Origin: Cerasicoccus sp. TK19100
GTDB taxonomy: Bacteria > Verrucomicrobiota > Verrucomicrobiia > Opitutales > Cerasicoccaceae
Length of the DNA stretch: 64,000 nt
NCBI RefSeq assembly: GCF_027257155.1
Contig: NZ_JAPWDU010000006.1
Location: forward strand, 434,001-498,000
Reading direction: 5' to 3'
The notes beneath the pieces are model-generated. The model saw only the letters and a program-made list of their open reading frames with translations, was not told the origin of the DNA and did not search any database. Shown one piece after another: positions 5,139-23,932 of this stretch; positions within the stretch are counted from its first letter, which is position 1, and each line of letters begins with the position of its first letter. The translations under genes were made by a program, and so were the position numbers.

Positions 5139-5708
5139 ATGATAAAGCTACTACCGGTTTTGTTAACTGCTGCGACGATCACTACTGCGCAAGCATCCCT
5201 CTCGATTCAATTTGACGTAACTGGGCCGACGACGCTCGCTTACGAATTATCGGGCACGACGGTGGCCCCCGCCGGGCAACCCGAGAACGAGGGCTATATC
5301 ATCTTTATCGATATCACAGGCCCGGTTCAGGCATCTTACATCGACATCACCGGTGATGCGCGCATCGGCAACACCAATGGCGTCAATACGTCTTACGTTG
5401 GCTTTCCTTCCGCTGTCTATGACAAGCCTTTGCAATTGCGCTTCGTCAATTACATTCAGGACGGCGAAGCGGCATCCGGCAGTGGCGAAGTCACGTTTAA
5501 TGTACCGCATGGGCTGACTAACTCGATGTTTATCGACGGCGTAACCGGCATTTACCTCGGCACCAATGGCACCTCTCCGAATGCGACTGATGGCGTGTTC
5601 CAGGGGTATGCGTCCGCGCTGGTCCCCGAGCCCGCCACCTACGCCGGCATTCTTGGACTCGGCGTGCTGGCTGTTGCCATGGTTGCCCGTCGCCGCAAGC
5701 GCGCGTAA
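5139..5708 (+). CDS. PEP-CTERM sorting domain protein
   Basis: About 189 residues starting at the ATG of MIKLLPVLLTAATI; TTG and GTG codons just upstream are in frame but less likely. The signal peptide ends near AQAS. The body is beta-rich (QFDVTGPTTLAYEL, YIDITGDARIG). The C-terminus is VPEPATYAGILGLGVLAVA then RRRKRA, the classic tripartite exosortase-recognition tail. The protein should be exported and processed by an exosortase/EpsH system encoded elsewhere. The specific role is unknown. Confidence 0.85.
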   Translation: MIKLLPVLLTAATITTAQASLSIQFDVTGPTTLAYELSGTTVAPAGQPENEGYIIFIDITGPVQASYIDITGDARIGNTNGVNTSYVGFPSAVYDKPLQLRFVNYIQDGEAASGSGEVTFNVPHGLTNSMFIDGVTGIYLGTNGTSPNATDGVFQGYASALVPEPATYAGILGLGVLAVAMVARRRKRA

Positions 5709-16668: not shown

Positions 16669-17352
16669 ATGGAGCGCTTATCAATAGTAATTCTTATTCT
16701 CATCGCGGCGATGGGGGTAACCGCCTGCAAGCCGAAACCCGAGGTCAAGACTTACACGATCCCCAAGGAGCAAACGGCCGCGCGCCCAACGATGGCGGCT
16801 GGCGCGCCCGCGGATTCACCGACGATACCAGCCCCTGGCGGTGCGACGGGCCCGATGATGAGCGGCCCCATGGCGGGCGGTGGCTCGATGACTGCGACCC
16901 CTGGCATGGTCGCGCAGGTGAGCGGTTTTCAAACGCCAGCCTGGCAAGCGCCCGCCGACTGGCAGGCGAAGGACCCCGGCTCCGTCCGAAAGGGCTCGTG
17001 GGACGTCGTCGGCGCAGGTGGCTCGGCGGATGTATCCATCACGGTCTTCCCGGGCGACGTCGGCGGTGATCTGGCCAACGTCAACCGCTGGCGCCAGCAG
17101 TTGGGCTTGCCCGCGGTGGATAACGCCGGTCTACAGCCCGCGCTCACCCACAAAGATTTTGCCGGCGGGCACGGCCACATCGTCCACTTGGTCGGGCAGA
17201 ATGGCCAATCGATTTTAGGTGCCATTTTGCCGCGAGGCGGTGCCACCTGGTTCTTTAAAATGCAAGGCGACTCCGCGCTGGTGGAAAGCCAACTGGTGCC
17301 CTTTGACGCCTTTTTGGAAACGGTCGATTTCTCGGCCACTGAGACTCCCTGA
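16669..17352 (+). CDS. putative lipoprotein upstream of ccsBA
   Basis: 227 residues with a lipoprotein signal (MERLSIVILILIAAMGVTAC; Cys20 is the lipid site). A Pro/Ala/Gly-rich linker (25-85) precedes a beta-rich domain (VSGFQTPAWQAPADWQAKDP ... GATWFFKMQGDSALVESQLV). The last codon overlaps the ccsBA start by one base, so the two are cotranslated. A role near cytochrome c assembly is suggested only by context. Confidence 0.82.
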   Translation: MERLSIVILILIAAMGVTACKPKPEVKTYTIPKEQTAARPTMAAGAPADSPTIPAPGGATGPMMSGPMAGGGSMTATPGMVAQVSGFQTPAWQAPADWQAKDPGSVRKGSWDVVGAGGSADVSITVFPGDVGGDLANVNRWRQQLGLPAVDNAGLQPALTHKDFAGGHGHIVHLVGQNGQSILGAILPRGGATWFFKMQGDSALVESQLVPFDAFLETVDFSATETP

Positions 17353-20300
17353 TGAATCCTGTATTTCGTTTTTTTAGTTCCCTTGGGCTGACGGTGGCGC
17401 TGCTCGCGCTGTCGATCGTGCTGGTCTTTTTCGGAACGCTGGACCAAGTCCAGTGGGGCATCAACCACACGCAAAAGCTCTACTTCGAGAGTTGGGTGGT
17501 GATGTCGCCAGTGGTCTCGCTGATCAAGGTTTTCACCTCGCAGCAGTTCGATCCGGACCTGGCGCATATCACGTTTCCGCTGCCGGGTGGTTTCACACTC
17601 GGGGCGCTGTTGCTCATCAACCTGAGCTGCTCGCATTTCCGTTATTTCAAGGCGAGCTGGAAGAAGTCCGGCATCGCCGTGTTGCACCTCGGCGTGCTGT
17701 TGCTGATCGTCAGTGGCTTCACCACGAGCATGCTGCAGGAGGAAAGCCAAATGCGGATGGACGAGGGCGGGGCACCGGTCAATTACTCCACCGATTTCCG
17801 CGCGGCCGAGATCGTGCTGATCGATAAGTCCGCCGCCGACTCCGATACGGTCACCGCCATCCCGTTTAAGCTGGCCCTCGACGAGGACACGATCGCGCTG
17901 CCCAACGGCTTTACGCTGAACATCATCGCCGCCGTCCAAAACGGGGGCATGGGCATCCGCAATAATTTGCTCAACGACTACCAGAGCTTTGTCATACAAA
18001 GTGAGCAGCCCGGCGCGCCCAAAATGAGCGAAGAGCAGTTCCGCCAGGTCAATGGCACCATCGCGGGGCTGCGCGATCCGAACGTCGTGATGATCGGCAT
18101 GGACGGCACGCCATTGGTCAACGCTGCCGACCTGAATATGCAGGGCTTTGCGCCGCGCATGGACGGCATCGTCATTCAGCACCCACCGACCTTTAAAGAG
18201 GATGAGGCGAACATGGCCGCCGCCGCCGTGCAGGTCGTCGCCCCCAATGGCGAGGCGCTCGGCACGTGGTTGCTCAGTGCGGGGATCGGGCCGGAGTTTC
18301 CGGCGCAGGGCTTTGAATACGAGGGCAAGCGCTACGACCTCGGTCTGCGTTTCGAGCGCACGTATTTCCCGTTCACGCTGCAACTGATCGACTTTAAGCA
18401 CGACCGCTACCCGGGTACCAACATCCCGAAAAATTTCTCTAGTGATGTGATCATCAACAATCCGCAGACCGGCGAAAACCGCCCGACGCTGATCTACATG
18501 AACAACCCGCTGCGCTACGAGGGCTACACGTTTTTCCAAGCCAGCTTTGCCAACGAAGACACGACCTCGATCCTGCAAGTGGTGAGCAACGCGACTTGGT
18601 GGCTGCCGTATTTGGCGATCACCTTGGTCGGGCTGGGGATGACCATGCAGTTTGGCCTGAGTCTGATGACTTTCGCCAACCGCAAGTCGGCCAAGAAGGC
18701 CAAAGAAAGCAGTGACGCGACCACGCCGAGTGGCGGCGTACTCGTGCCGGGTATTTTCCTGGCGATCGGTTTGCTGATCACCGGTGCCGGATTTTTCCAG
18801 AAGCCGAAGTCGGACTTTGCAGTGCAAAGCTTTGCCGAGCTGCCGGTGCAGAGCGGTGGCCGTATCTTGCCGCTGGACTCCGTGGCGATCAACTCGCTGC
18901 GCATTATTCAGGGCCGCCAAAATGTCCGCCTGGATGACGGCCGGAAGCTGACCGCCAGCGAGTGGCTGCTTGATCTGGCTTACAAGCCGGAGCTGGCCGA
19001 CGATTACCCGGTCTTCCGCATCGTCAACGCCGAGGTGCTTGCGCTCTATGGCTGGCAGCAAACGGATCGCAAATATTTCTCGTGGAATGAGCTGAGCCCG
19101 GAGTTTTCGATGCTCGCCGAAATGGCGCGCCAAGTCCCCGATGAGGAAACGCAGCGTACGCCGTTCCACAAGGCGCTGATCAAGCTGACGAACGCCTTGA
19201 CCATGTATAACGCGCTGGGCCACTCGCTGGACCCCGGTGCCGATTATCAGGCGTGGGAGGAAGTCGCCGGCCCCGGCAGCGAAGCGTTGCGCCAGCGTGA
19301 GCAGGGTCAGCCGTTTGACGAAGCCGCGCTGACGCCCTTCATCGTGATGGCCGATTATTACATGCGCCTCGCGCAAACGGCGGATCTCGGCGTGACCGCG
19401 CCGCCGGCGGGCAGCGGGAGCAACGACTGGCTAAACATCGGCGAGGGAATGTTTACGACGATTCAAAGCGGCGAGCTGAGTGACGTGGTCAAGGGCTACG
19501 GCGCGTTGGGGGTTGCCTACCGCGAAGGGCAGCCCGAGGCATTTGCGCAAACGCTGGCCGAGATGAAGGCCGAGCTCGCCTTGCAATCCAGCGCCAGCCG
19601 TGTGCAGTTCGAAGAGCTGTTTAACGTCATGCAGCCGTTCTATTATACGATTATTATCTACGTGATGATTTTCTTCCTGGTTTGCGTTAGCTGGCTTAAG
19701 TGGTCGGCACCGCTTCAGCGTGCGGCGTTTTGGCTGATGGTGCTGGCACTGGTGGTGCACACTTTTGGGCTCTTTGCGCGCATGTATATTCAAGGGCGGC
19801 CACCGGTGACGAATCTCTACTCGTCGGCGATTTTCGTTGGCTGGGTGTCGATCATCCTGGGCGTGATTCTGGAGCGGATTTACCGCAACGGCGTGGGTAG
19901 CTTTGTCGCGTCGCTGATTGGCTTTGTGACGCTGATCATCGCGCATAACCTCGCGCTGACCGGCGACACGCTGGAAATGATGCGTGCCGTGCTCGATGAC
20001 AACTTCTGGCTGGCAACGCACGTGGTGATCATCACAGCGGGCTACGGCGCGGTCTTCCTGGCCGGCGCGCTGGGGCTGATTTACATTGTGCGCGGACTGA
20101 TGACGCCGGGGCTCGAGAAATCCACCGCCAAGACGCTCTACGGCATGAGCTACGGCATCACCTGCTTTGGGCTGCTGTTCAGTTTTGTCGGCACGATGTT
20201 GGGCGGCGTTTGGGCCGACCAGAGTTGGGGCCGTTTTTGGGGCTGGGACCCGAAGGAAAATGGCGCGTTGATCATCGTGCTTTGGGGTGCGCTGATGCTG

Positions 20301-20549
20301 CACGCACGCTGGGGCGGTTTGGTCAAAGAGCGCGGCTTCATGGTGCTCGCCGTGGGGGGCAATATCGTGACGGCGTGGAGCTGGTTCGGGACGAATTTGC
20401 TCGGCATCGGCCTGCACTCCTATGGGTTCCTGAGCGCGGCCTTCACTTGGCTAACGATCTTCTGGGTGAGCCAGCTGTTCTTCATCGCCATTGGCTTGAT
20501 TCCGCTGAAATACTGGTCAAGCTACAGCCGATGGAAAAAACAATCCTGA
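17352..20549 (+). CDS. ccsA: fused ResB-CcsA cytochrome c biogenesis protein
   Basis: 1065 residues. The N-terminal third resembles ResB/Ccs1 (membrane segments near 8-30, 75-95 and 110-130, a large periplasmic region, and a segment near 415-435). The C-terminal third is CcsA with several membrane segments and the haem-handling WWD motif WGRFWGWDPKENGALI. System II proteins carry haem across the membrane and attach it to CXXCH apocytochromes. A middle periplasmic domain (AELPVQSGGRILPLDS) is present, as in the Bacteroidetes-type fusions. It overlaps a lipoprotein gene on each side, indicating an operon. A diheme cytochrome fusion gene lies just downstream. Confidence 0.93.
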   Translation: MNPVFRFFSSLGLTVALLALSIVLVFFGTLDQVQWGINHTQKLYFESWVVMSPVVSLIKVFTSQQFDPDLAHITFPLPGGFTLGALLLINLSCSHFRYFKASWKKSGIAVLHLGVLLLIVSGFTTSMLQEESQMRMDEGGAPVNYSTDFRAAEIVLIDKSAADSDTVTAIPFKLALDEDTIALPNGFTLNIIAAVQNGGMGIRNNLLNDYQSFVIQSEQPGAPKMSEEQFRQVNGTIAGLRDPNVVMIGMDGTPLVNAADLNMQGFAPRMDGIVIQHPPTFKEDEANMAAAAVQVVAPNGEALGTWLLSAGIGPEFPAQGFEYEGKRYDLGLRFERTYFPFTLQLIDFKHDRYPGTNIPKNFSSDVIINNPQTGENRPTLIYMNNPLRYEGYTFFQASFANEDTTSILQVVSNATWWLPYLAITLVGLGMTMQFGLSLMTFANRKSAKKAKESSDATTPSGGVLVPGIFLAIGLLITGAGFFQKPKSDFAVQSFAELPVQSGGRILPLDSVAINSLRIIQGRQNVRLDDGRKLTASEWLLDLAYKPELADDYPVFRIVNAEVLALYGWQQTDRKYFSWNELSPEFSMLAEMARQVPDEETQRTPFHKALIKLTNALTMYNALGHSLDPGADYQAWEEVAGPGSEALRQREQGQPFDEAALTPFIVMADYYMRLAQTADLGVTAPPAGSGSNDWLNIGEGMFTTIQSGELSDVVKGYGALGVAYREGQPEAFAQTLAEMKAELALQSSASRVQFEELFNVMQPFYYTIIIYVMIFFLVCVSWLKWSAPLQRAAFWLMVLALVVHTFGLFARMYIQGRPPVTNLYSSAIFVGWVSIILGVILERIYRNGVGSFVASLIGFVTLIIAHNLALTGDTLEMMRAVLDDNFWLATHVVIITAGYGAVFLAGALGLIYIVRGLMTPGLEKSTAKTLYGMSYGITCFGLLFSFVGTMLGGVWADQSWGRFWGWDPKENGALIIVLWGALMLHARWGGLVKERGFMVLAVGGNIVTAWSWFGTNLLGIGLHSYGFLSAAFTWLTIFWVSQLFFIAIGLIPLKYWSSYSRWKKQS

Positions 20550-20689
20550 TCGTCCTTACGGTCATCGCCGCCCTTGGTTTGACCGCTTGCGAATCGTCAT
20601 CTGCAACTACTGATAATAGCCAATCAGAAGAGGTTCTCAAAATGCAACAAAAGCGCGAACAATATCAACCACAGGCCCCGGGTAACTGA
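20531..20689 (+). CDS. very small lipoprotein
   Basis: 52 residues: MEKTILIVLTVIAALGLTAC is a lipoprotein signal peptide with Cys20, followed by a 32-residue polar tail (KMQQKREQYQPQ). The ATG lies inside the end of ccsBA (19-base overlap in another frame). The short reading frame is supported by the clean lipobox and the operon position. Function unknown. Confidence 0.65.
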   Translation: MEKTILIVLTVIAALGLTACESSSATTDNSQSEEVLKMQQKREQYQPQAPGN

Positions 20690-20703
20690 GAACACATTAT
20701 CTT

Positions 20704-20913
20704 ATGAAAAAGATTCATATTACGTTCATCATTAGCTCTTTATTGGGCGCTTTTTTATTCGCTGGCTGCGAGAGTAAGCCGCTGACCCCTCGGGAGAAGC
20801 AGATTTACGAAAATGAGAAAGCTGAACTGGGTTACGAAAATCAGCAACAGCTTGAAGAAGTCGAGTATGAGCAAGGTTACGTCCCGACTGGCGATCCGCA
20901 GATCGATCCGTAA
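20704..20913 (+). CDS. small lipoprotein
   Basis: 69 residues with a lipobox (LFAGC, Cys22) and a Glu/Gln-rich tail (REKQIYENEKAELGYENQQQ). It lies 14 bases after the previous small lipoprotein and before a strong terminator, so it ends the ccsBA transcription unit. The acidic helical tail may form a coiled coil. Function unknown. Confidence 0.72.
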   Translation: MKKIHITFIISSLLGAFLFAGCESKPLTPREKQIYENEKAELGYENQQQLEEVEYEQGYVPTGDPQIDP

Positions 20914-20935
20914 AAATTTTGACTGGAAAAACGAG

Positions 20936-20964
20936 AAACCTAGGTAAAATTGCCTAGGTTTTTT
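20936..20964 (+). terminator. intrinsic terminator of the ccsBA unit
   Basis: Stem AAACCTAGG with CCTAGGTTT, 8-base loop, then TTT. It lies 22 bases after the lipoprotein stop. Confidence 0.88.
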
Positions 20965-21074
20965 GGTGAAACCACATCACTGCTTTGCTAACTAGCCACT
21001 GTTTTAAACAAAATTTGTAACAAACGACATTTTTTATAAAAAAAAACGTGCAAAGCCCTAATATTTTCCGGAAC

Positions 21075-21099
21075 ATGTCGTATATATTATTGACGACAT
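21075..21099. promoter_or_regulatory. operator-like dyad overlapping a -10 element
   Basis: TGTCGT (21076-21081) and ACGACA (21093-21098) form an inverted repeat with an 11-base AT spacer that contains TATATT, a plausible -10. A dimeric regulator bound here would block transcription of the triplet leader. The arrangement is suggestive only; no -35 is convincing. Confidence 0.35.
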
Positions 21100-21195
21100 A
21101 AGTGTTGGGTAAAACCAACCTTTCAGTCAGTAGTAGCAGTAGTAGTAGTAGTAGCAGCCAGTCCCCGTCCCTTAGCAGGGCGGGGACTATTTTTT
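21095..21195 (+). ncRNA. Ser-triplet leader or small RNA
   Basis: Three elements follow in order: a small hairpin GTTGG/CCAAC (21104-21119), ten in-frame AGT/AGC triplets (21129-21158), and an intrinsic terminator whose stem AGTCCCCG-CCC pairs with GGG-CGGGGACT (21160-21188) before six T. A frame from GTG 21102 reads Met-Leu-Gly-Lys-Thr-Asn-Leu-Ser-Val then ten Ser, which is the logic of an amino-acid attenuator (Ser codons just before a terminator). The GTG has no ribosome-binding site, so a non-coding RNA of about 100 bases with an unpaired (AGU)n segment is equally possible. The gene downstream is not a serine biosynthesis gene. Confidence 0.5.
21160..21195 (+). terminator. intrinsic terminator after the Ser-triplet tract
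   Basis: An 11-bp GC-rich stem with a single bulged T at 21168, loop TTAGCA, followed by ATTTTTT. It lies about 100 bases before the start of the dehydrogenase, so it either ends a small RNA or works as an attenuator. Confidence 0.88.
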
Positions 21196-21298
21196 GCCCA
21201 GTTGCTGTGTGCCTTGGATATTGCCAAAGGTCAGAAAAATTGACGACTTGCTGTGTTTATTGTGGAATAATTATTCCTATCGCTGACACTTAAGTAAC

Positions 21299-23932
21299 AT
21301 GGCACGAATTTTACTAGCTATCCTCTGCATGCTGAGCTCTACCTCGATCAGCGCGAATATTCAGCAAGCAGATACGGATCTACCATTTGATAATGTAAGT
21401 GCTTACTCCTTGGAAAATGCCTTTCCGGGTTTGAGTTTTTCTGACCCGATTACGATTACCACAGTGCCTGGAGAGAGTGATCGTGTATTTATTGGAGAGA
21501 AAGGGGGGATGTTGTGGGTGATCCCGGATTTGAATGCGCCTGTGCTCGAAAAACAGCAATTCCTCTCTTTAAAGTATATACAGAATGCTTGGGAATCTGG
21601 ATTACTCGGCGTGGCGTTTCACCCGGATTTCGCTAGCAACGGCTACTTTTACGTCTATTATACGCCTCATGAGTTCATTGATGGTGTACGGATTCGCTAC
21701 AACCGGCTTTCGCGTTTTCAAGTCTCTGCGGATGATCCGAATGTCGCGGATCCGACCAGCGAATTGATTCTAATTAATCAACTGGACAAAGATATTTTCC
21801 ATAATGCGGGAGACGTGCATTTTGGCAGCGATGGCTACCTCTACTTCACCAATGGAGATGGAGGAGATGCCAATGACAGCTACGATGTCGCTCAGCGGCT
21901 TGATTTGGACTATTTCGCCGGCTTGTTTCGCATTGATGTTGACCGGCTGCCCGGAAACCTGGAGCCCAACAGTCACCCGAGCGTGGTGCTAAATCCTGAG
22001 ACTGGGAAAGCCAATTATGCTATTCCGGCGGACAATCCCTGGGTTGGTGCCACCAGCTTTAATGGCAGTCCGGTGAATGCCGAAGAGGTGATCATGGAGT
22101 ATTTCGCAATAGGTCTGCGCAATCCGTTTCGATTTTGGATCGATGACACTTCGGGGAATATATGGATTGGCGATGTCGGGCAATACGCCCAAGAAGAGGT
22201 TGATATTTCGCGGGGCGGCGAAAATTTCGGCTGGGCCTACCGGGAAGGCCTGATTGATGGGTTTAAGAGCGATCAACAGCCCGAGGGCTTCGTCGAAACA
22301 CCTCCCATCCATGTTTATCCACGCAATGAGGGTCGTGCGATTATAGGTGGGCTGGTTTACCGCGAAGATTTTTATCCTGAACTAGCGGGTGCCTACGTGT
22401 TTGGGGACTACGTTTCAGGGCGTATTTGGGCGCTGCGTTACAATGGAGAATCGGTTTCCCGTGAGCTGCTTACGCAACAAACTTCGCTGACTGAATTTGA
22501 TCTGCATCCACAAACAGGTGAGATCTTAGTCAGCATTCGTGATAGTGGCGAGATTATGAAATTGGTCCGCAATGATGAGTTAGCAGCCTTACCGGAGACG
22601 CTCTCGGAAACAGGTGCTTTTACCTCACTGCAGGATATGACGCCCGCTGCCGGAGTTATCCCGTATGAGCCGAATGTCAGCTTTTGGTCCGACCATGCCA
22701 TCAAACAGCGTTGGTTTGCGTTGAGTGGTGAGGAGCCCTTTGACTATTCGCTCGATGAGGGCTGGACGGCACCCACTGGCGCGATTTGGGCCAAGCACTT
22801 CGAACTGGAACTGGAGCGGGGTAATCCAGACTCGCGAAAACGCATCGAAACGCGCTTTCTGGTAAAAACCGAAGCCGGCGCTTATGGTGTATCTTACCAG
22901 TGGAACGAGGCGGGAACCGAAGCCACCCTAGCGAGTGCCGATGGCGTGGATATTGCCTTGGATATCGTTGATGAGCACGGGTTTGAAAAAACGCAAACGT
23001 GGCGCATTCCCAGCCGGTCTGAGTGCATGCAGTGCCACAGTGCGGTATCCGGTTTTGCGCTGAGCTTTAATGCACGGCAGCTAAACCGCTCCGATGAGTT
23101 TGCGGGGCAGTACCAAAACGTGTTGGCTGGGCTGACTGCCATGGGGTATTTGGCTGGAGGGCCAGACAGCGAGGAGGTCAAATACATCCCAGCTTTTGCG
23201 ACCAAAACAGACGAATCGCAGAGTTTGGAATTTCGAGCGAGAAGCTACTTGGCGGTCAATTGCGCACAATGCCACCAGCCCGGTGGTGCCGCGATATCGG
23301 ATATTGATTTGCGCCCGCATCGCAGTTTGCGAGGGACGGGGATGATCAACGCTTTGCCCGGCAACGACGCTGGAGGCAATGGCGATCCGGACAACCGCGT
23401 TATCGTTCCGGGGGACCCCGACCACTCTGTGCTGCTGCAGCGACTTTGTGCCTGCAACGGCTTTACCCGAATGCCCCCTCTGGCGACTTTCGAAATCGAT
23501 GATGAGGGCGTGGCGCTGATCCGTGATTGGATTTTATCGCTAGCCGGATATGAATCCTACCATGAGTGGATTGAGAATTATTTCAGCCTAACAGCGCCTG
23601 AATCCGCTGCAGATGTCGATGCTGATGGCGATGGCTTTTCGAATGAATTTGAGCATCTCGCTGGCACGAATCCGAACCGATTTGCGGATGCCTGGCAGCC
23701 AACATTCCAGATGGACGGTGATCAGTTGCAACTCCAGTATCAAACTGTTCGCAACTTACCGCTGTTGATTGAAGCTTCGAATGATCTCGTTGATTGGCAA
23801 CTTTGGGAGCAGGGACCGCAGTCTCTGCTTTCGACCGAGGGCGGAGCCACCATGGTTCATGATCTCGAGTTGGAGAGTCCGCTTTTTTTGCGGTTTGTAT
23901 TTCCTGGAATTCCAGATTCCACCGAAGACTAG
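21299..23932 (+). CDS. PQQ-type sugar dehydrogenase fused to diheme cytochrome
   Basis: 877 residues with a signal peptide (ILLAILCMLSSTSISA). Residues about 35-430 are a glucose/sorbosone dehydrogenase propeller (GLLGVAFHPDF, HNAGDVHFGSDGYLYF, GLRNPFRFW, GENFGWAYREG). Residues about 450-750 are a diheme cytochrome region like the SO2930/HNE_0200 family, with haem sites CMQCH and CAQCH and a possible Met ligand in RMPPL. A thrombospondin-3-like stretch (DVDADGDGFSNEFE) and a beta domain follow. It would oxidise a sugar or polyol in the periplasm and pass electrons to its own haems. Haem attachment would depend on CcsBA, encoded just upstream. Confidence 0.88.
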   Translation: MARILLAILCMLSSTSISANIQQADTDLPFDNVSAYSLENAFPGLSFSDPITITTVPGESDRVFIGEKGGMLWVIPDLNAPVLEKQQFLSLKYIQNAWESGLLGVAFHPDFASNGYFYVYYTPHEFIDGVRIRYNRLSRFQVSADDPNVADPTSELILINQLDKDIFHNAGDVHFGSDGYLYFTNGDGGDANDSYDVAQRLDLDYFAGLFRIDVDRLPGNLEPNSHPSVVLNPETGKANYAIPADNPWVGATSFNGSPVNAEEVIMEYFAIGLRNPFRFWIDDTSGNIWIGDVGQYAQEEVDISRGGENFGWAYREGLIDGFKSDQQPEGFVETPPIHVYPRNEGRAIIGGLVYREDFYPELAGAYVFGDYVSGRIWALRYNGESVSRELLTQQTSLTEFDLHPQTGEILVSIRDSGEIMKLVRNDELAALPETLSETGAFTSLQDMTPAAGVIPYEPNVSFWSDHAIKQRWFALSGEEPFDYSLDEGWTAPTGAIWAKHFELELERGNPDSRKRIETRFLVKTEAGAYGVSYQWNEAGTEATLASADGVDIALDIVDEHGFEKTQTWRIPSRSECMQCHSAVSGFALSFNARQLNRSDEFAGQYQNVLAGLTAMGYLAGGPDSEEVKYIPAFATKTDESQSLEFRARSYLAVNCAQCHQPGGAAISDIDLRPHRSLRGTGMINALPGNDAGGNGDPDNRVIVPGDPDHSVLLQRLCACNGFTRMPPLATFEIDDEGVALIRDWILSLAGYESYHEWIENYFSLTAPESAADVDADGDGFSNEFEHLAGTNPNRFADAWQPTFQMDGDQLQLQYQTVRNLPLLIEASNDLVDWQLWEQGPQSLLSTEGGATMVHDLELESPLFLRFVFPGIPDSTED

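Follow-up and report, generated by a model that had tools for sequence, protein, structure and literature searches.

The enterobacterial sRNAs RybB and MicA are Hfq-dependent and pair through short, single seeds. They are described as short RNAs with a GGAAC −35-like box whose targets are envelope-protein mRNAs (PMC1804206). FoxI and FoxJ of Fusobacterium nucleatum, a host said to lack both Hfq and ProQ, are reported as sigma-E-controlled sRNAs that repress envelope proteins by means of a C-stretch seed (PMC11005410). LhrC of Listeria monocytogenes carries redundant copies of a short pairing motif, is induced by envelope stress and pairs with a surface-protein target without Hfq (PMC4132741). 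In Helicobacter pylori, the sRNA RepG exerts its control via a simple-sequence repeat, the length of which translates into graded control (PMC8295292), and in Bacteroides thetaiotaomicron FopS and GibS are described together with RbpB as sRNAs of bacteria that have RRM-1 proteins (PMC11697453).

sRNA regulation in the Verrucomicrobiota is little recorded; one review tabulates 8 distinct sRNAs for the PVC group as a whole (PMC9029176). Our searches of the open-access literature found no paper on an sRNA in Cerasicoccus (subscription papers and preprints lay outside the search), none that by its title was on the subject of PEP-CTERM and sRNAs, and none that combined the RNA recognition motif, Verrucomicrobia and Hfq. 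Here we analyse a locus in a 64,000-nucleotide stretch of Cerasicoccus sp. TK19100 DNA (the window) that appears to encode an sRNA with a trinucleotide-repeat seed.

Layout and fold of the RNA locus

A preliminary description of this DNA, made from its letters, had pointed out a dyad with TATATT inside, a short hairpin, ten consecutive AGY triplets and a terminator of 11 pairs. All of these are present in the window, and they are listed here with the neighbouring features of the locus.

21038–21046, plus strand: A-tract, a possible UP element 5′ of the promoter-like box; seven A columns are invariant in the four-species alignment
21070–21074, plus strand: GGAAC, a −35-like box of sigma-E/ECF type, invariant in 4/4 species
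21076–21098, no strand assigned: dyad TGTCGT-N11-ACGACA enclosing TATATT, with arms at 21076–21081 and 21093–21098
21093–21097, plus strand: ACGAC, a putative −10-like box 18 nt 3′ of GGAAC
21099–21195, plus strand: candidate sRNA of ~90–100 nt, a conserved block in 4/4 Cerasicoccus genomes; the 5′ end is predicted at about 21097–21104
21100–21123, plus strand: hairpin 1, with 8 pairs, all cells paired in four species and two pairs varying on one side
21129–21158, plus strand: (AGY)10 tract, the proposed multiplied seed, read directly from the sequence
21160–21195, plus strand: hairpin 2 and T6, an intrinsic terminator in the window genome; 11 pairs, with one compensatory change in C. arenae

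The stem of hairpin 2 occupies 21160–21188, where its 11 pairs are accompanied by one bulged base, and is followed by an A and by T6 at 21190–21195. The minimum-energy fold of 21091–21196 reaches −35.3 kcal/mol (z = −3.9), and 0/200 shuffles were equally stable; the other folds of this study were computed in the same way. Within the 5.07-Mb, 97%-complete window assembly, (AGY)7 occurs at a single place (4 overlapping matches). An Rfam cmscan of 20600–21500 with E values up to 5 returned 9 weak matches, all well under the gathering score. Scanning 20500–21400 for terminators gave 2 sites, against 0.8 expected from shuffles: hairpin 2 of the RNA gene and one site on the other strand, at 20961–20936. 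The latter, a palindromic stem AAACCTAGGTAA/TTGCCTAGGTTT followed by a T-run (20936–20961), lies between a lipoprotein-like ORF and the RNA gene and is probably the terminator of the upstream operon.

Conservation in Cerasicoccus

Among 54 genomes of the order, the element was found in 4/4 Cerasicoccus genomes, at one locus. These are the window genome (G000) and, as identified by scanning named genomes with a portion of the element, those of C. frondis (G001), C. arenae (G002) and C. maritimus (G003). The three other copies are 95, 87 and 89% identical to the window element, the 89% match spanning 98/141 bases. The fifth match of the search, 30 bases in G007, comprises the AGY run only, located after an AcrB-type gene and before a different hairpin. 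Conservation extends from approximately GGAAC to the end of hairpin 2, while the flanks diverge with the exception of the A-tract, and the number of triplets in the four species is 10, 10, 11 and 15. In the four-row alignment every cell of the 19 pairs is paired, compared with 35–55% pairing when partners are slid. Covariation is weak in so small a set of four sequences (the one compensatory pair in hairpin 2 and two one-sided ones in hairpin 1), and 130/500 shuffles are its equal.

Loss of tract and terminator from close relatives had been named as one observation that would speak against the element. Tract and hairpin are retained in 4/4 species, whereas a T-run 3′ of hairpin 2 occurs in 1/4, the window genome; the other three read ATCTGTG or CTCTGTT. 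The dyad is likewise perfect in the window genome only. The other three species have ACGATA (or ACGATA then C) as its 3′ arm, and the support for the operator role first proposed for the dyad ends at TCGT-N11-ACGA, the part common to all four.

The genes next to the element had been suggested as a further check, and the two sides give different answers.

17352–20549, plus strand: ResB/CcsA fusion gene, upstream (Pfam PF05140, PF01578); a similar ORF of 1065–1072 aa lies upstream in 4/4 species
20704–20913, plus strand: small lipoprotein-like ORF of 69 aa, upstream; lipoprotein by eye, no Pfam match
21299–23932, plus strand: GSDH-type dehydrogenase, downstream (Pfam PF07995); this neighbour is not conserved

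G000, G001 and G003 have the 69-aa ORF called at the corresponding position; in G002 it is not called. ResB/CcsA is a constant upstream neighbour, but the downstream gene varies: two species have the GSDH-type gene, C. arenae has an ORF on the opposite strand, and C. maritimus has one that by eye resembles a response regulator. One could regard the element as a leader or cis element of whichever gene follows, with its hairpin acting as a partial terminator at least where the T-run is absent. The absence of a T-run in three species would suit such a role, as would a downstream gene that shares the element's strand in G000, G001 and G003; the gene itself, however, varies by species and lies on the other strand in G002, and we consider a cis role quite unlikely.

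Leader peptide or RNA

In one frame the ten triplets read as ten Ser codons, and the preliminary description had placed an amino-acid attenuator first, in which translation of these codons controls the terminator for the downstream gene. The arrangement in the window genome fits this idea, as the GTG-started Ser run, part of a 63-codon ORF, stands before the terminator, and C. frondis has the same GTG frame. The frame is free of stops in 4/4 species; its start is not conserved. In C. arenae, 2 extra bases in hairpin 1 leave the hairpin paired and leave no ATG, GTG, TTG or CTG ahead of the triplets in the frame of the Ser codons. C. maritimus has GCG in place of the GTG, and the remaining starts are a TTG at −24 and an ATG within the promoter-like block. 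Of what had been proposed for comparison among relatives, the triplets are kept (10–15) and the start of the Ser frame is lost in C. arenae.

An observation that could be counted in favor of translation is that the Ser frame of C. maritimus (L052) stays open for 316 codons and joins the response-regulator-like ORF downstream. This joined frame is probably due to chance, and it is the sole place where the tract could form part of a protein. As to the ribosome-binding site reported missing from the GTG, none is evident, but its absence says little, because Shine-Dalgarno-like k-mers are not among the most enriched at starts of this genome. The 25 most enriched 6-mers at starts (window and L241–L259) include none that is Shine-Dalgarno-like, and TAACCC, TAACCT, GCCTAA and similar 6-mers are found instead. 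The downstream dehydrogenase had been called unrelated to Ser metabolism, with which its Pfam family agrees, and no downstream gene of a matching pathway is conserved. With the hairpins kept, start codons lost and a downstream gene that is neither conserved nor Ser-related, an attenuator is very unlikely. Judged by its four sequences, the locus evolves as an RNA and not as a Ser-rich leader: it behaves as an independent, conserved non-coding RNA gene in 4/4 genomes, in which the hairpins are retained and the leader frame is not.

Promoter-like box and other AGY elements

All four Cerasicoccus RNA genes carry GGAAC-N18-ACGAY. Nine AGY elements were compared, and GGAAC lies 42–60 nt 5′ of the repeat run in 7/9 (chance in a 40-nt stretch, ~2.8%), being absent from copies L350 (G000) and L351 (G002). 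WCKA follows GGAAC after 18 nt in 7/7 elements with GGAAC, a pattern derived from the same elements in which it was counted. Given this circularity and the homology among several of the nine, the GGAAC/WCKA pattern is a lead and not a proof. The sigma-E promoters of rybB and micA are given as −35 GGAACTTTT and −10 GTCAAA (PMC1804206). The −10-like box of the AGY elements differs from GTCAAA, a rybB/micA consensus that may not be that of this phylum. We infer that a sigma-E/ECF-like promoter may drive the RNA gene.

A second kind of AGY element has its run directly before a terminator of the type ACCGGCTCAGCC, after an acetyl-CoA hydrolase gene (assigned by Pfam for the C. frondis copy and by eye for G000 and G003), and a further copy of this type follows another gene in G003. 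The four copies with AGY run and terminator are L350 (G000:C4:355807), L349, L352 and L348, 3/4 of them after an acetyl-CoA hydrolase gene, and GGAAC-N18-WCKA occurs just upstream in 3/4, L350 being the one without it. The element linked to acetyl-CoA hydrolase is possibly a second sRNA with the same seed. Additionally, the cobalamin adenosyltransferase genes of C. frondis (L042, PF01923) and C. maritimus (L043) have a sense (AGU)n ~27 nt ahead of their start, possibly as a cis site or decoy. The combination of AGY run and hairpin is also found outside Cerasicoccus, in G007 of a related genus, where runs L053, L223 and L226 stand directly before G+C-rich hairpins, one of them immediately downstream of an AcrB-type gene.

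The complement of the tract at gene starts

Matches to CTACTACTA in the four Cerasicoccus genomes number 117. Of these, 21 belong to the RNA gene and 7 repeat a locus already counted, so that 89 places remain; a single script classified every one of them, counting a start region for ORFs of at least 100 aa. Start regions accounted for 21/89 places on the ACU strand and 2/89 on the opposite strand. Five starts explained by coding were then removed from the ACU strand, 4 of pseudopilin genes and 1 of a glycosyltransferase-like gene (the bases encode Tyr at the upstream gene's end). The 16/89 that remain exceed the 2 of the opposite strand, which was not purged likewise (p = 4e-4), as well as the 3.7% of random positions and the 5.1% of A+T-rich 9-mers that fall at starts (p = 2e-7 and 1e-5). 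By genome, these starts are 2/20 in the window genome, 3/32 in C. frondis, 7/14 in C. arenae and 4/23 in C. maritimus. Complementary sites at starts thus exceed chance, owing to C. arenae and C. maritimus; taken singly, the window genome and C. frondis barely surpass random positions.

Most of the proteins with ACU starts begin, by eye, with a signal peptide or membrane segment, L175 being among the exceptions. The PEP-CTERM motif is present at the end of 7/17 of these genes (the 16 and L143, which the script had rejected) versus 10/360 unselected genes from stretches of G000 and G002 (p = 1.5e-6).

Two lines of inquiry were set aside. In the unselected 6-mer test (nineteen 20-kb stretches and the window) ACU was not distinctive: ACU 6-mers at unselected starts were only ~2.5-fold over the genome rate, and AAU 6-mers were similar (1.9–2.7). 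A conserved pseudopilin target, with ACTACTACTACC at orthologous starts in three species, was dropped because these bases code for DYYYR, close to the C-terminal end of the pseudopilin encoded upstream. DNA of the ACTACTACTACC site also precedes the G006 homologue.

The pattern CTACTACTA-N0-22-ATG was counted over the 54 genomes. Because coding ATGs dominate this count, hits outside the genus were classified by locus for six genomes only (G004–G009). Start regions accounted for 0/22 matches in the related genus g3 (G005, G007, G008, G009), 3/5 in G006 of a sister genus and 2/7 in G004. A seven-triplet AGY run stands before a terminator in G004; in G006 the search for AGY runs of at least six triplets found none, despite the ACU starts. 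Separately, the leader of L056 (G000), a secreted enzyme that is glycoside-hydrolase-like by eye, contains a hairpin TTGGATG-CTACTACTA-CATCCAA with the ACU repeat exactly in its loop; the ACU site begins 28 nt 5′ of the start codon.

PEP-CTERM genes examined directly

PEP-CTERM genes were collected by Pfam family: 44 from C. arenae, 45 from C. maritimus and 31 from the control G005, which belongs to a related genus and in which searches for the element and for an AGY run of six came back empty. The start regions read were 40, 34 and 31, respectively; 2 from C. maritimus and 1 from C. arenae were in the sample owing to a known ACU site. An ACU heptamer is present at 5/40 starts in C. arenae, 6/34 in C. 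maritimus and 0/31 in G005. The resulting 11/74 compares with 4/350 non-PEP genes of G000 and G002 (p = 1.8e-6) and with 0/31 in G005 (p = 0.017); counting all unread PEP-CTERM genes as misses, it becomes 11/89 vs 4/350 (p = 9e-6). Signal-like non-PEP starts in Cerasicoccus (G000, G002) have the heptamer in 1/128 cases.

When no motif was preset and 8-mers present in at least 4 of these 74 regions were ranked by over-representation, ACTACTAC, TACTACTA and CTACTACT, the three ACU phases, came out on top, each in 6–7 genes vs 0.12–0.14 expected and each outranking the start-codon 8-mers. The ranking of 7-mers puts ATGAAAA first and ACU phases second, third and sixth. The longest match to the tract is 2–6 nt in 63 genes and 7–11 nt in 11, as against 3–6 nt in 31/31 genes of G005. 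Leaders hold 4 of the 11 longest matches; the other 7 fall within first codons (Leu, Thr, Tyr), so the ACU signal could be partly protein-driven. Composition may also explain part of the difference from G005, as the G+C content of start regions is 38% in Cerasicoccus vs 43% in G005.

The window has three PEP-CTERM-type genes, one of which is a predicted target; the two others have no such match.

5139–5708, plus strand: PEP-CTERM-type gene, predicted target; GCTACTAC at 5147–5154, an 8-nt perfect complement of the tract, covers the third to sixth codons

These counts bear on the possibility that the tract is a neutral microsatellite beside a terminator, a product of slippage with no function, and that the ACU repeats come from signal-peptide codons and A+T-rich leaders. 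The varying triplet number (10–15), the mild rise of ACU 6-mers at unselected starts and the 7/11 longest matches that lie within codons would all be expected from it. It does not explain why the promoter-like block and both hairpins are conserved alongside the tract, or why heptamers are found at 0/31 PEP-CTERM starts in G005 and 1/128 signal-like non-PEP starts, with 4/11 of the longest matches in leaders. We regard a functionless repeat as unlikely.

Hfq and RRM proteins

The distal face of Hfq takes (ARN)n. Hfq (PF17209) was found in 0/54 genomes of the order, in a search that a strongly diverged Hfq could escape and that was positive in 5/14 control genomes. An Hfq-dependent (ARN)n sRNA was dropped for this reason. 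RRM_1 proteins are present in 46/54 genomes of the order, and an RRM protein may be its RNA chaperone. The leaders of the Cerasicoccus RRM genes L084, L085 and L091 share a strongly conserved stretch with a CGCCGGA...TCCGGCG stem ahead of a probable GTG start, and this region is a candidate regulatory leader.

YAG is a motif preferred by some eukaryotic RRMs, and every triplet of the tract is a YAG. The RNA could be a sponge, its run of YAG sites titrating an RRM-type protein away from mRNAs as CsrB does with CsrA. The wide occurrence of RRM_1 proteins where Hfq was found in 0/54 genomes is in keeping with this, and so are the AGY runs in the leader of the cobalamin adenosyltransferase gene and before terminators. 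A sponge gives no account, however, of why it is ACU rather than YAG that is enriched at starts (16 vs 2 of 89), and there is no YAG run at the RRM gene start in the 16 of 20 loci where the RRM frame was read; this explanation seems rather unlikely. A review and a Porphyromonas RRM paper yielded no motif data for use here (PMC12119571).

A base-pairing sRNA as the best explanation

As the best reading of the locus we favor, with a probability of about 0.6, an sRNA that regulates the envelope by base pairing through a multiplied trinucleotide seed. The alternative offered in the preliminary description, an sRNA whose single-stranded (AGU)n segment binds targets, gains sequence-level support from the conservation of the element and from the ACU enrichment at starts. 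Indeed, the exact complement of the tract is unusually common at the starts of exported-protein messages, which suggests that the AGU-repeat RNA regulates the cell surface. Conservation of the element, its RNA-type evolution and the enrichment of its complement at starts are computed results. Against this reading are the ACU starts of G006, the codon-borne sites and the signal itself, which is thin in the window genome and C. frondis.

For the course of regulation, we infer transcription, pairing, repression and envelope-stress (sigma-E) control as follows. A sigma-E/ECF-like promoter would produce, under envelope stress, an RNA of ~100 nt made up of a 5′ hairpin, an (AGY)10-15 tract left mostly single-stranded and a G+C-rich 3′ hairpin; in the window genome, this last hairpin would end transcription. 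The tract, a seed presumably multiplied by triplet slippage, could offer many registers for pairing with ACU repeats of 7–11 nt in the ribosome-binding and first-codon region of exported-protein mRNAs, chiefly those of PEP-CTERM proteins. Such pairing would block translation of the mRNAs with ACU starts. It may be chaperone-free or rely on another protein, such as the RRM proteins present, since Hfq was not found in the order. A broader hypothesis, which we hold tentatively and consider doubtful, is a trinucleotide code in which (AGU)n seeds from several loci, under a common sigma-E-like box, would silence mRNAs with (ACU)n starts, slippage easing the evolution of seed length and avidity.

What the locus provides is an sRNA open to testing. 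Its predicted regulon consists of PEP-CTERM and other exported proteins, envelope stress is its predicted inducer, and its seed, a long trinucleotide microsatellite, is out of the ordinary. If this reading is true, it would represent an sRNA network working without Hfq, and a repeat serving as a multi-register seed, whose regulon targets may join by gaining an ACU heptamer.

Comparison with known sRNA systems

Most likely, the Cerasicoccus RNA works like FoxI/FoxJ, RybB/MicA and LhrC, and we claim membership in none of these families. With FoxI and FoxJ it would share a simple low-complexity seed, envelope or exported targets and a genome in which no Hfq was found. It differs from them in its seed of 10–15 tandem AGY triplets, in its predicted PEP-CTERM and other exported targets, in a sigma-E dependence that is putative for Cerasicoccus and in its phylum. 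The likeness to RybB and MicA lies in a short RNA, a GGAAC box and predicted envelope targets, with no claim of sequence homology; unlike the Cerasicoccus RNA, these two target OMPs. FopS and GibS are further removed, as the seed and targets of the Cerasicoccus RNA are different and it has no Rfam match near threshold. In RepG regulation the variable repeat is in the leader of the target mRNA, whereas in Cerasicoccus the long repeat is in the sRNA itself and a graded effect is only putative. Like LhrC, the Cerasicoccus RNA repeats one short pairing motif, but where LhrC has three CU-rich sites, it has a tandem trinucleotide array.
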